Part shown: positions 20,505 through 24,389 of the stretch, piece by piece
Layout of the letters: the number at the start of each line of letters is the position of its first letter
Numbering within the stretch: position 1 is the first letter of the stretch
Assembly: GCA_902601865.1 (NCBI GenBank)
Contig: CACKOX010000011.1
Coordinates: 1 to 39,489, forward strand
Origin: an uncultured Alphaproteobacteria bacterium
GTDB taxonomy: Bacteria; Pseudomonadota; Alphaproteobacteria; HIMB59
Direction of reading: 5' to 3'
Length of the DNA: 39,489 bases
Translations under genes and position numbers: made by a program
Notes under the pieces: model-generated
Databases searched by the model: none
What the model saw: the letters and a program-made list of their open reading frames with translations, nothing else
What the model was told of the DNA's origin: nothing

Positions 20505-22181
20505 ATGTCTACAGGATCAAACGAACAAATGATAACTGGCGGAGAGCTAGTTGCAAAGGCCCTAAAAGCCGAAGGAGTTGAAGTAATTTATACTTTATGT
20601 GGAGGGCACATTATTGACATTTATAATGGATGTTTAAACGAAGGAATTAAAATCATTGACGTTCGTCACGAAGAAGTTGCCTCTCATGCTGCTGACGGAT
20701 ATGCACGAATGACTGGTAAACCAGGTTGCGCTGTTGTAACTGCTGGTCCAGGAACTACTCATGCATTAACTGGCGTTGCAAACGCATTTAGAGCTGAAAT
20801 TCCGATGCTTTTAATTGGCGGTCAGAGCTCTCTTACACAACATAAAATGGGATCTTTACAAGATTTGCCTCACGTAGACATGATGCAACCCATTACAAAA
20901 TTTGCTGCTACAGTAATGTCGACTGAGAGATGTGCAGACATGGTCTCAATGGCTTTCAGGGAAACTAGAAATGGATCTTTTGGCCCATCTTTCTTAGAAA
21001 TTCCAAGAGACATTCTTGACTCATCTATTCCTATGAGTAAAGCTGTTTTACCACAGGCAGGCAAATATAGTGCTTCATCAAAAACATTAGCAGACCCAAC
21101 AGATGTTCAAAAGGCTGCTGATATAATTTCAAAAGCTGAGAGACCTTGTGTTCTTTTGGGTCAACAAGTTTGGACTTGCCAGTCAACAGCAGAAGCAATT
21201 GAATTTGTCAAAAATATGAATATACCTGCTTATTTAAATGGTGCTGCAAGGGGTTCAATGGCACCAGGAGACCCACATCACTTTCATAGAACTAGAAGAA
21301 ATGCATTTACTAAGTCAGATTGTATTATAATCGTTGGAACACCTTTTGATTTCAGAATGGGTTATGGAAAAAGATTAAACCCAAATGCAACAGTGATTCA
21401 AATTGATATGGATTATAGAACTGTAGGAAAAAATAGAGATATCTCTCTTGGCTTAGTTGGTCATATTGGAACAACTTTAAAAGCTATTTCAGAGGCAGGA
21501 ACAAAGAAAGATAGATCAGATTGGTTTGGTGAACTTCGATCAGGTGAAGAGGCAGCATTAGAAAAGCTGATGCCTACTTTTACAACTGATAAATCTCCAA
21601 TCAGCCCTTATAGAGTGGCATGGGAACTTAATCAGTTTTTAAATGATGACACTATATATATTGGCGATGGAGGAGACGTTGTTACTATTAGTGCTCAGGC
21701 TGTTCAACCAAGAATGCCAGGTGCTTGGATGGACCCGGGACCACTTGGAACATTAGGAGTTGGAGTACCTTACGCGCTTGCTGCAAAATTAGCTGCTCCA
21801 GAAAAAGAAATTCTTTTATATTGTGGAGATGGAGCATTTTCTATGACAGGTATGGATTTTGAAGCATTTGTTCGTCATAAAGCTCCTGTTTTAACTGTTA
21901 TAGGAAATAACTCTGCTCAAAATCAGATTAGATTTGGACAAATTATGAAGTACGGAGAAGATAAAGGTAATGTTGGAAACATCCTAGGAGATGTTAACTT
22001 TGATGAATTTGCAAAAATCTTTGGTGGTCATGGCGAGGCTGTTAGAGAAGCAAAAGAAATTCAACCAGCCCTTCAACGAGCAAGAGAAGCTGTAAAGTCA
22101 GGTATCCCTGCAATAGTTAATATTTGGGTTGATAAAGAAGAATTTGCACCTGGTACTAAAAACCAGACTATGTACAAATAA
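20505..22181 (+). CDS. TPP-dependent 2-hydroxyacyl-CoA lyase / oxalyl-CoA decarboxylase-like enzyme
   Basis: A 558-residue member of the TPP family that includes acetolactate synthase, oxalyl-CoA decarboxylase (Oxc) and 2-hydroxyacyl-CoA lyase (HACL). The order is Pyr domain (about 8-175, catalytic Glu56 in VRHEEVAS), central TH3 domain (about 205-340) and PP domain (about 385-550, GDG at 441-443 and Asn468-Asn469 of the TPP/Mg motif). Where Oxalobacter Oxc has Tyr120-Glu121, this protein has Leu118-Gln119 in MGSLQDLPH, closer to the AFQEFPQ of human HACL1. The Frc-type CoA transferase next door indicates a formyl-CoA-producing reaction: cleavage of a 2-hydroxyacyl-CoA to an aldehyde plus formyl-CoA, or decarboxylation of oxalyl-CoA. 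An acetolactate-synthase-like role cannot be excluded, but no small subunit is present. Confidence 0.85.
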   Translation: MSTGSNEQMITGGELVAKALKAEGVEVIYTLCGGHIIDIYNGCLNEGIKIIDVRHEEVASHAADGYARMTGKPGCAVVTAGPGTTHALTGVANAFRAEIPMLLIGGQSSLTQHKMGSLQDLPHVDMMQPITKFAATVMSTERCADMVSMAFRETRNGSFGPSFLEIPRDILDSSIPMSKAVLPQAGKYSASSKTLADPTDVQKAADIISKAERPCVLLGQQVWTCQSTAEAIEFVKNMNIPAYLNGAARGSMAPGDPHHFHRTRRNAFTKSDCIIIVGTPFDFRMGYGKRLNPNATVIQIDMDYRTVGKNRDISLGLVGHIGTTLKAISEAGTKKDRSDWFGELRSGEEAALEKLMPTFTTDKSPISPYRVAWELNQFLNDDTIYIGDGGDVVTISAQAVQPRMPGAWMDPGPLGTLGVGVPYALAAKLAAPEKEILLYCGDGAFSMTGMDFEAFVRHKAPVLTVIGNNSAQNQIRFGQIMKYGEDKGNVGNILGDVNFDEFAKIFGGHGEAVREAKEIQPALQRAREAVKSGIPAIVNIWVDKEEFAPGTKNQTMYK

Positions 22182-22197
22182 ATCTTAGGAGGAAATC

Positions 22198-23445
22198 ATG
22201 GAAGCTTTAAAAGGGGTTAAAATATTAGACATGACTCATGTTCAATCTGGTCCGACTTGTACACAGTTATTAGCTTGGTTTGGTGCAGATGTAGTCAAAG
22301 TAGAAAGACCAGGAGTAGGAGATGCTACTAGGGGTCAATTAAGAGATGTTCCTGATGCAGACAGCTTGTATTTTACAATGCTTAATTCTAATAAAAGAAG
22401 TATTACACTAAATCCAAAGAAACCAGAAGGTTCAAAAATATTCACTAAACTTATTAAAGAATGTGATGTGATGGTCGAAAACTTTGCTCCAGGTGCTTTA
22501 GATAGAATGGGTTTTTCTTGGGAAAAAATTCAGGAGATAAATCCAAGAATGATCTATGCATCTGTTAAGGGCTTTGGTCCGGGTAAGTACGAAGATTGTA
22601 AAGTTTATGAGAATGTTGCTCAATGTGCAGGTGGATCAGCTTCAACAACAGGTATGCTTGGTGAAGTCCCGCTCGTTACTGGCGCTCAAATAGGAGATAG
22701 TGGAACAGGACTACATTTAGCATTAGGAATTGTAACCGCATTGTTTCACAGAGAAAAGTCGGGAAAAGGTCAAAGAGTGTCTGCTGCTATGCAAGATGGT
22801 GTTTTAAATCTTTGCAGAGTAAAACTTCGTGATCAACAAAGGCTCTCTAGAGGCCCTCTAAAAGAATACTCTCAATTTGGAGAAAATATTCCTTTTGATG
22901 ACGCTACGCCTCGTGCAGGCAATGACTCTGGTGGAGGTCAACCAGGAAGAATTCTAAAATGTAAAGGTTGGGAGACTGATCCTAATGCTTATACTTATTT
23001 TATTACTCAAGCTGCAGTTTGGGAAAAAGTATGTGATGTTATTGGAAAACCTGAATGGAAAGAAGACGAGAGTTACTCAACACCTGCGCTTAGACTGCCT
23101 AAACTTAATGAAATCTTTAATACCATTGAAGCTTGGACTATGACTAAGACAAAATTTGAGGTTATGGATATATGCAACCCTCTTGATATACCAGTTGGCC
23201 CAATCCTTTCTCTAAAAGAGTTGGCTGAAGATCAAGGACTAAGAGATACTAATACAATAGTTGAGGTTGATCATCCTGAAAGAGGTAAATATTTAACAGT
23301 TGGCAATCCTATTAAATTATCAGACTCTCCAGCAAAAGTTGAAAGATCTCCACTTCTTGGAGAACATACAGATGAGATACTGAAGGAATTTTGTAAAATG
23401 AGCCAAGATGAAATTAAAGCTGTAAGAGAAGCCGGAGCAGTATAA
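22198..23445 (+). CDS. frc: Formyl-CoA transferase-type class III CoA transferase
   Basis: A 415-residue family III (CaiB/BaiF) CoA transferase that is strikingly like formyl-CoA:oxalate CoA-transferase along its length: [20 protein letters not shown] at the N-terminus, [31 protein letters not shown], and [14 protein letters not shown] [12 protein letters not shown]. Asp167 in AQIGDSGTG is the catalytic aspartate (Asp169 in Oxalobacter Frc) and Gln16 matches Gln17. The flexible glycine loop is SGGGQPG instead of GGGGQPG, and Frc Trp48 is Gln47 here. It would move CoA from formyl-CoA to the incoming acid, releasing formate, in a cycle with the upstream lyase. An AGGAGG site precedes the ATG, 17 bases after the lyase gene. 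Confidence 0.9.
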
Positions 23446-23471
23446 GATACATTCAATTTTAAGGAGACATA

Positions 23472-24389
23472 ATGAAGATAATTTTAATGGGACAACAAGC
23501 ATTTGGTAAAAGTGCTTTAGAAAAATTTCATACAGAAACAGAGCACGAAGTTGTAGCAGTATATTGTGCGCCCGATAAAGAAGGTAAGCCAGTTGACCCT
23601 GTAAAGGAATACGCCCAAAGTGTAAGTCTCCCAGTATTCCAACCATCAAACTTTAAAGATCAAGAGGTATTAGACCAAATAAGGTCTCATGGAGCAGATT
23701 TATGTGTAATGGCATATGTTATTATTTTCGTTCCTGAGGGAGCAAGAGATATTCCTACTCATGGTTCAATATGTTTTCACCCTTCATTACTTCCATTACA
23801 TAGAGGTCCAAGTTCTATTAACTGGCCGATTATTGGCGGATCAACTAAAACAGGTCTTTCAATCTTTTATCCTAACGATGGATTAGATGAAGGTGAGATA
23901 TTACTTCAAAAAGAAGTCGACATAGCACCTGATGACACTTTGGGTGATGTTTATTTCAAAAAAATATTTCCATTGGGTCTTGATGCTTGCGTAGAAGCAG
24001 CAAATCTAATTGAGTCAGGAAATGCACCAAAAATTCCCCAAGACGACTCTAAAGCTACATATGAATCTTGGTGTAAAAAAAGTGATGCACGAATTGATTG
24101 GAAAAAGCCCGGAAATGAAATTTATAACCTAATAAGAGGCTGCAACCCTCAACCAGGTGCATGGGCTGAATTTATGGGAGACGAGTATACATTCTTTAAT
24201 AGTAGGTTTATTGATGAACAAAGCGCCGAGCATTTCCCAGGTCAAATAATATCAATTAATGCTGAGAATGTTAGAATAGCTGTAAAAGGTGGATTTATTG
24301 AAGTATCAAGGTTTAAATCTGATCAAGGTAAATTATTTGTAAAAGACATGAACACTGCAGTATTTACAGAGGGTGATTTATTCTCATAA
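23472..24389 (+). CDS. Stand-alone formyltransferase like the hydrolase domain of 10-formyltetrahydrofolate dehydrogenase
   Basis: A 305-residue protein resembling the N-terminal domain of ALDH1L1 (10-formyl-THF dehydrogenase) throughout, without the carrier and aldehyde dehydrogenase domains. FHPSLLPLHRGPSSINW (His103, equal to His106 there) and NDGLDEGEILLQKE (Asp139, equal to Asp142) are the catalytic residues; IRGCNPQPGAWAEF and TFFNS belong to the C-terminal subdomain. The family moves or hydrolyses the formyl group of 10-formyl-THF. In this operon it may pass the formyl unit between formyl-CoA and folate, or free formate and THF. It is not a usual methionyl-tRNA formyltransferase, as judged by these motifs and the absence of def. 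An AAGGAG site precedes the ATG, 26 bases after frc. Confidence 0.85.
   Translation: MKIILMGQQAFGKSALEKFHTETEHEVVAVYCAPDKEGKPVDPVKEYAQSVSLPVFQPSNFKDQEVLDQIRSHGADLCVMAYVIIFVPEGARDIPTHGSICFHPSLLPLHRGPSSINWPIIGGSTKTGLSIFYPNDGLDEGEILLQKEVDIAPDDTLGDVYFKKIFPLGLDACVEAANLIESGNAPKIPQDDSKATYESWCKKSDARIDWKKPGNEIYNLIRGCNPQPGAWAEFMGDEYTFFNSRFIDEQSAEHFPGQIISINAENVRIAVKGGFIEVSRFKSDQGKLFVKDMNTAVFTEGDLFS

Follow-up and report, generated by a model that had tools for sequence, protein, structure and literature searches.

A probable oxalate module with a proposed second type of oxalyl-CoA decarboxylase and a candidate formyl-CoA:tetrahydrofolate formyltransferase in an alphaproteobacterium of the HIMB59 lineage

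Gene layout and the Frc anchor

We analysed a stretch of 39,489 nucleotides from an uncultured alphaproteobacterium (contig CACKOX010000011.1 of assembly GCA_902601865.1; the whole stretch is called the window) and focused on three adjacent genes on its forward strand. They encode a thiamine diphosphate (ThDP)-dependent lyase of 558 aa (20505..22181), the formyl-CoA:oxalate CoA-transferase Frc of 415 aa (22198..23445) and a formyltransferase of 305 aa (23472..24389) of the kind found in 10-formyl-tetrahydrofolate dehydrogenase (FDH). All three are complete open reading frames (ORFs), separated by gaps of 16 and 26 bases. The gene order in the window is aminotransferase, PanE-like protein, TctC, TctB, TctA, GntR regulator, lyase, Frc and formyltransferase; SucD, SucC and a quinone oxidoreductase lie on the other strand between the PanE-like gene and TctC. 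The original prediction, made from the sequence alone, had placed the three adjacent genes behind a transporter and a GntR regulator, and the intact ORFs with TctCBA and a GntR/FCD regulator upstream agree with this description. Judging from family assignments and gene neighbourhoods, it is likely that the window encodes a module for the uptake and catabolism of oxalate. The source genome (1.22 Mb, 85% complete) probably belongs to the marine AEGEAN-169/HIMB59 clade.

Frc is the firm anchor of the oxalate reading. As had been predicted from its likeness to Frc, the protein scored above the cut-off of the oxalate_frc equivalog model TIGR03253 (694.9 bits, cut-off 504.2), and its best solved relatives are the E. 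coli YfdW structures and named formyl-CoA transferases. As a member of this family it would transfer CoA from formyl-CoA to oxalate.

For the genus we used a sample of 52 genomes including the source genome, one of which is a single contig of 1.41 Mb. The formyltransferase was found in 42 and the lyase in 40 of the 52 genomes, and each was present in all 10 genomes that are at least 90% complete. At the same thresholds neither the lyase (0/48) nor the formyltransferase (0/48) was found in the genomes of the other family of the order. A second genus locus (L118) shows the same gene order with identities of 98% for the lyase, 97% for Frc, 96% for the formyltransferase and 82% for the quinone oxidoreductase. 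In another one (L115 of genome G038, 7411-11058) the lyase, Frc and GntR were matched in shifted pieces, which points to assembly errors or decay.

The lyase in the position of Oxc

The locus resembles the known Frc/Oxc (type II) oxalate pathway, as encoded by frc-oxc of E. coli, in that a ThDP enzyme adjoins an oxalate-type Frc, and it shares the class of regulator and transporter with the Oxc-type operons of Alphaproteobacteria. It differs from this pathway in two respects: a formyltransferase is added, and the slot of the decarboxylase is occupied by a protein which is 26% identical to E. coli Oxc and reached 243.8 bits against the Oxc model TIGR03254 (cut-off 739.4).

We studied the distribution of both enzymes in a sample of 385 genomes of the class, drawn evenly. 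Lyase orthologues were counted from an identity of at least 62%, Frc at E <=1e-120 and Oxc above its curated cut-off; three genomes with a best lyase match of 41-42% (G152, G224 and G327) were left out of the orthologue counts. Lyase orthologues occurred in 17 genomes (4 of the own genus and 13 others), Frc in 35 and Oxc in 19. Sixteen of the 35 Frc genomes carried the lyase, 18 carried Oxc, one carried neither and none carried both, so that exactly one of the two enzymes was present in 34 of 35 cases (Fisher p 4e-9; 9e-8 when the own genus is excluded). In the seventeenth lyase genome (G169) Frc is cut off by the contig end. A separate search found Oxc above the cut-off in none of 22 lyase genomes (nine controls were matched, one of them above the cut-off). 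The same was true for the 50 genomes reached via other lyase loci (50 of 69 non-genus loci). In the class search and in the search of these 50 genomes E. coli was the sole control above the cut-off. We regard this displacement as strong grounds to infer that the lyase replaces Oxc.

Gene neighbourhoods gave a similar picture. Thirteen of the class orthologues come from outside the genus; in 11 of these Frc directly follows the lyase, and one of the 11 is cut by the contig end. For G325 (L097, 10661-15694) about 5 kb of other genes lie between the lyase and the pair of Frc and formyltransferase, and in G408 the lyase ends at a contig edge and Frc is found on a different contig. The co-occurrence search that had been suggested along with the original prediction showed conserved co-occurrence in the genus and in other class genomes. 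This strengthens the proposed cycle in which Frc would consume formyl-CoA and the lyase would regenerate it.

We then compared the lyase with known enzyme families. Its score stayed below the cut-off for every NCBIfam model among the 25 best. For the window lyase and two orthologues the top score was obtained with PRK05858 'acetolactate synthase' (NF004516), as would be expected if the enzyme were of the acetolactate synthase type, acted on 2-keto acids and stood beside Frc by chance. All three scores (483.5, 517.7 and 450.0 bits, the first for the window lyase) are below the cut-off of 587, however, and a chance neighbour would hardly be followed directly by Frc in 11 of 13 genomes or be confined to genomes that lack Oxc above its cut-off. 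We consider this explanation highly improbable. The assignment to the HACL/Oxc family in the original prediction holds only at the level of the superfamily: the cut-offs of Oxc and of the 2-hydroxyacyl-CoA lyase (HACL) model (NF058623, 351.1 bits, cut-off 600) were both missed. In a tree of 20 rows with long branches the lyase orthologues are placed apart from Oxc, with relatives of ∼40% identity from other class genomes as their sisters.

A further explanation is that the enzyme is a true HACL: Frc would then activate a 2-hydroxy acid, for example glycolate, lactate or 2-hydroxyisobutyrate, and the products would be an aldehyde or ketone and formyl-CoA. The best solved relative by sequence is AcHACL, the 2-hydroxyisobutyryl-CoA lyase (HICL) of Actinomycetospora, a ThDP lyase like the window protein, for which action on acyl-CoA is proposed. 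The two share 28-30% identity in fold alignments, Leu127/Gln128 of AcHACL are retained in the window lyase, and in the tree the AcHACL chain groups, on a long branch, with the lyase and not with Oxc. A fold search with a structure model of middling quality (predicted local distance difference test, pLDDT, of 79.2) put HACL first; benzaldehyde lyase and AcHACL were also among the top matches, and E. coli Oxc came 33rd with a template modelling (TM) score of 0.87. As all these matches lie at TM scores of 0.80 to 0.90, the fold search does not separate Oxc from HACL.

The active site separates the lyase from AcHACL. In the accessible parts of two reports (PMC8760513, PMC10192776), Glu493 of AcHACL accepts the hydroxyl proton of the substrate, a contact that does not occur in Oxc. 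In a pairwise alignment to the solved chain, itself a Glu493 mutant, Ile475 of the lyase takes this position. Ile was observed in 101 of the 101 orthologues having the residue (one more is truncated), where rows of at least 55% identity were counted and the broken locus L115 was left out. Leu118, Gln119, Gln474, Arg476 and the C-terminal QTMYK were constant wherever present in the orthologue alignment. The window lyase ends with this motif at residue 558, whereas AcHACL has a large C-terminal lid (556-590) according to the accessible text of PMC8760513.

The surroundings of the lyase in other organisms also speak for oxalate and against a true HACL. On a Phyllobacterium plasmid the lyase and frc adjoin oxlT, in Streptomyces fungicidicus a transporter of the oxalate/formate antiporter (OFA) family follows, and in G373 the pair of lyase and Frc is flanked by OxlT (611.3 bits, cut-off 335) and a glyoxylate carboligase above its cut-off. 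Across 87 lyase loci outside the genus we found OFA-type matches in 47, OxlT-type ones in 5, SucC in 58 and PanE-like matches in 24; this set is redundant and heavily weighted towards Streptomyces, and some of the OFA matches are just 29-36% identical. With the low HACL score and the replacement of Oxc beside an oxalate-type Frc, a true HACL appears improbable. 2-Hydroxy acids as the main substrate were rejected or at least weakened, as Glu493 is lost and Oxc displaced. Among the substrates listed in the original prediction, oxalate is therefore favoured over glycolate, lactate and 2-hydroxyisobutyrate, because the lyase fills the Oxc slot without the acid/base Glu of AcHACL.

Several observations weigh against a replacement of Oxc by the lyase. 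To our knowledge, no lyase orthologue has had its activity measured. Tree and fold place the enzyme nearer to HICL/HACL-like and PRK05858-like enzymes than to Oxc, and the retained AcHACL pair points in the same direction. The residues of Oxalobacter formigenes Oxc given in the accessible parts of PMC8760513 and PMC10192776 are Tyr120, Glu121, Tyr483 and Ser553. The lyase has Leu118/Gln119 at the first two positions and Arg476 at that of Tyr483, which was aligned across a two-residue gap, and at Ser553 the C-terminal ends of the two proteins align without confidence. The catalytic Glu56 is present in 102 of 102 orthologues, which is weak evidence for Oxc membership since it is common to related ThDP enzymes. 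Scoring in the class sample was limited to the first few candidates of each genome, and the Fisher values take genomes as independent although their ancestry is common. Furthermore G336 has Frc without either decarboxylase and G225 has Oxc without Frc at the threshold. Two lyase genomes also contain an Oxc relative: that of G284 reached 533.9 bits (cut-off 739.4), is 41% identical to E. coli Oxc and is the sister of Oxc in the tree, and that of G408 reached 356 bits. Thus the statement that no genome has both hinges on the curated cut-off. As the acid/base residue of AcHACL is gone, which a decarboxylase may allow, and the Oxc residues are absent as well, the lyase would be a non-orthologous decarboxylase.

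The two relatives (L201 in G284 and L202 in G408) are themselves ThDP enzymes that are nearer to Oxc than the lyase is and lie below the Oxc cut-off.

The formyltransferase and its operons

The best sequence match of the formyltransferase is the hydrolase domain of FDH with 218 bits, compared to 138 for the best methionyl-tRNA formyltransferase, and the best matches in a fold search were FDH hydrolase domains as well. This confirms the FDH type that had been assigned before. The protein consists of Formyl_trans_N and Formyl_trans_C only, with no fused carrier or aldehyde dehydrogenase domain. The FDH triad His106-Ser108-Asp142 corresponds to His103, Ser105 and Asp139, none of which varies across the 25 aligned sequences. 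Against the methionyl-tRNA formyltransferase model TIGR00460 the score was 159.9 bits and did not reach the cut-off of 201.5. The window protein carries the motif CFH where the genome's own Fmt-like protein carries NIH; Asn-x-His, which we take to be the motif of methionyl-tRNA formyltransferases, is absent from it. Compared to ALDH1L1, whose hydrolase domain it resembles in sequence, fold and triad, the window protein is free-standing and located in an operon with Frc.

In the accessible part of PMC6802093, the hydrolase domain of FDH moves formyl from 10-formyl-tetrahydrofolate (10-formyl-THF) to a 4'-phosphopantetheine thiol via His106, Ser108 and Asp142, and for HypX the same transfer is proposed with CoA as the acceptor, without direct experiment. 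The N-terminal domain of HypX is a fold match of the window protein, but the two are only 17-18% identical in fold alignments, and HypX is fused to a proposed decarbonylase domain and serves hydrogenase maturation. We suggest that the window enzyme probably exchanges formyl between CoA and THF.

The distribution of the formyltransferase is consistent with such a role. The lyase or Oxc was present in 29 of 34 class genomes with the formyltransferase, compared to 36 of 385 overall (p 6e-32). The formate-tetrahydrofolate ligase Fhs was found in 20 of 22 lyase genomes, where the copy of the window genome lies on another contig, and it shares the locus with the formyltransferase in 7 of the 12 non-genus lyase loci that have the latter. 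The link of the formyl unit to THF, which the original prediction had raised, is strengthened by this co-occurrence and by the frequent position next to Fhs.

Twenty class genomes carry the formyltransferase without the lyase, and we collected this locus from each of them. In nine of them a true Oxc (56-60% identical to that of E. coli) is followed by Frc and then by the formyltransferase; a GntR match precedes Oxc in eight of these, Fhs occurs in six and a TctA-type gene in five. In one further locus, at the end of a contig, Frc, the formyltransferase and Fhs lie together. A marine Paracoccaceae plasmid shows the order ppc, sucD, sucC, isochorismatase, regulator, oxc, frc, 'fmt_2' and fhs, followed by two other genes, TctB, TctA, a regulator, ketopantoate reductase and glyA2, and its 'fmt_2' is 52% identical to the window formyltransferase. 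As the Oxc-type loci and the plasmid share its layout, the window operon can be read as one of the Oxc type in which a different enzyme fills the place of the decarboxylase.

In the 87 lyase loci outside the genus, the gene after Frc is an acetate-CoA-ligase-family gene in 62 cases and the formyltransferase in 12; the rest are another gene of the query set (4), none of the set (5), a contig end (2) and loci in which Frc was not reached (2). The formyltransferase and the acyl-CoA ligase were found together in none of 111 loci. The two are unrelated, and from the same slot the ligase and the formyltransferase (with Fhs) could each either form or consume a CoA thioester.

It could be argued that the enzyme is a 10-formyl-THF hydrolase only, which releases formate for folate balance and has no CoA partner; hydrolysis is what the FDH domain does on its own. 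Its nearest relatives are indeed named hydrolase domains, and some copies have none of the oxalate genes searched for in their vicinity. The slot between Frc and Fhs in operons of both types, the failure to find it together with the ligase of the same slot in any of 111 loci and the thiol acceptors of FDH and, as proposed, of HypX (in the accessible text of PMC6802093) make a pure hydrolase unlikely. The role in formyl exchange with CoA is also weakened by other counts: 5 of 34 formyltransferase genomes have neither the lyase nor Oxc, the gene is absent from 7 of 36 genomes with the lyase or Oxc, and in 10 of the 20 non-lyase loci it has mixed surroundings away from oxalate genes. Five of these ten genomes have Oxc elsewhere and five do not. 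Because of these ten copies (L215-L220, L222, L226, L227 and L234) and the five genomes without lyase or Oxc above the cut-off, the family may have a second use.

Both families are under-named in the records we inspected. The FDH-type formyltransferase of one oxalate operon (L243, 9001-9918) is annotated as a methionyl-tRNA formyltransferase, and the lyase orthologues of Phyllobacterium and Streptomyces fungicidicus are annotated as plain 'thiamine pyrophosphate-binding protein'.

Proposed pathway and flanking genes

In the proposed pathway, TctCBA would import oxalate and Frc would transfer CoA to it from formyl-CoA, yielding oxalyl-CoA and formate. The ThDP lyase would then act in place of Oxc and convert oxalyl-CoA to formyl-CoA and CO2, so that the cycle of Frc and decarboxylase would be neutral for CoA thioester. 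The formyltransferase would swap formyl between CoA and THF, and Fhs, encoded elsewhere in the genome, would couple 10-formyl-THF to formate and ATP. More tentatively, a share of the oxalyl-CoA probably goes to the PanE-like enzyme, which would reduce it to glyoxylate, and amination of the latter may give glycine. As this reduction would remove CoA thioester, a replacement would be needed, and Fhs and the formyltransferase could refill it from formate and ATP via formyl-THF to formyl-CoA. In the opposite direction, formyl-CoA would supply formyl-THF for serine and purines without ATP cost. Formyl-CoA is the higher-energy formyl donor, which favours the step from formyl-CoA to formyl-THF. The net exchange could run either way.

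We favour, with less assurance than for the oxalate module as such, two new roles: a separately recruited second family of oxalyl-CoA decarboxylases and the first dedicated formyl-CoA:tetrahydrofolate formyltransferase. This second family would replace Oxc in marine Alphaproteobacteria, Actinobacteria, Burkholderiales and others. If this is true, the formyl-CoA and folate one-carbon pools would be interchangeable with the help of Fhs, the streamlined AEGEAN-169 clade would be an unrecognised oxalate consumer of the ocean with a role in the oxalate cycle, and surveys of oxalate catabolism with oxc as the marker would overlook a whole enzyme type in streptomycetes and ocean alike. A natural enzyme that joins formyl-CoA to folate would, in addition, be of use in the engineering of formate and one-carbon pathways.

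In the accessible parts of the open-licence papers searched, the lyase was nowhere reported to decarboxylate oxalyl-CoA, and no transferase between formyl-CoA and THF was reported for oxalate operons, although both may have been recognised earlier in subscription papers. Neither role is described in the accessible parts of PMC7176365, PMC11271303, PMC12927642, PMC3720670 and PMC7190790, the accessible text of the AEGEAN-169 paper (PMC10308909) mentions neither 'formyl' nor 'oxalate', and that of the Cupriavidus metallidurans genome paper (PMC2864759) contains a single mention of oxalate, in a speculation about transport. Growth on oxalate by a lyase-bearing organism was not found in the accessible open-licence texts. 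The original prediction had known of no described pathway with this exact set; none was found in the open-licence papers searched here either, but its framework is the established oxalate pathway of Frc and Oxc. The prediction was right in outline and is now sharpened to oxalate, with partial support.

The genes upstream of the lyase fit an oxalate module to a varying degree. TctC, the substrate-binding protein of a tripartite tricarboxylate transporter (16620..17597, PF03401), TctB (17617..18231, PF07331) and TctA (18258..19781, PF01970), all on the forward strand, form a probable oxalate importer, the substrate being suggested by context. They are followed on the same strand by the GntR/FCD regulator (19782..20441, PF00392 and PF07729), which probably controls the operon. 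Further upstream on the forward strand, a BhcA-like aminotransferase (11251..12411; NF045640, 572.7 bits, below the cut-off of 650) is a candidate for the step from glyoxylate to glycine. The PanE-like protein of the 2-dehydropantoate 2-reductase family (12412..13389, forward strand; PRK06522, 452.3 bits, cut-off 223) is a candidate oxalyl-CoA reductase to glyoxylate. PanE-like matches near the lyase loci and the ketopantoate reductase of the Oxc-type plasmid locus have been listed above. PanE2 of M. extorquens reduces oxalyl-CoA to glyoxylate, as stated in the accessible part of PMC8411744.

A beta-hydroxyaspartate cycle downstream of the aminotransferase was considered and rejected or at least weakened: PF14031, presumably the family of the aldolase of this cycle, was found in none of 11 genus genomes (2 of 14 controls were matched).

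SucD (13386..14258), the alpha subunit of succinate-CoA ligase, and SucC (14269..15456), the beta subunit, are encoded on the reverse strand. SucD matches occur near other oxalate loci, and its role in the module is unsure. As no second SucCD copy turned up in 10 of 11 genus genomes, it presumably also serves the tricarboxylic acid cycle, its position counts for little in favour of the oxalate module, and a dedicated oxalate role in this clade is weakened. A PIG3-type quinone oxidoreductase (15453-16550) lies between SucC and TctC and may belong to the module; similar proteins (38-41% identical) occur near the lyase loci L105, L128, L129 and L132.

Beyond the formyltransferase, a run of genes like those of a multisubunit Na+/H+ antiporter (24399-31665) begins after 9 bases. 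MnhE adjoins the formyltransferase in the genus loci L096, L115, L118, L123 and L124 and was not matched in L113 and L114. A promoter scan of the window gave 28 hits (shuffle mean 37.6) and a terminator scan 9 (shuffle mean 5.7); neither was used. A TPP riboswitch (RF00059, 69.2 bits) was found at 36561-36661, just ahead of binding-protein-like and permease-like ORFs (36685-39241). By eye these are perhaps a thiamine ABC transporter, and the lyase is a thiamine diphosphate enzyme.

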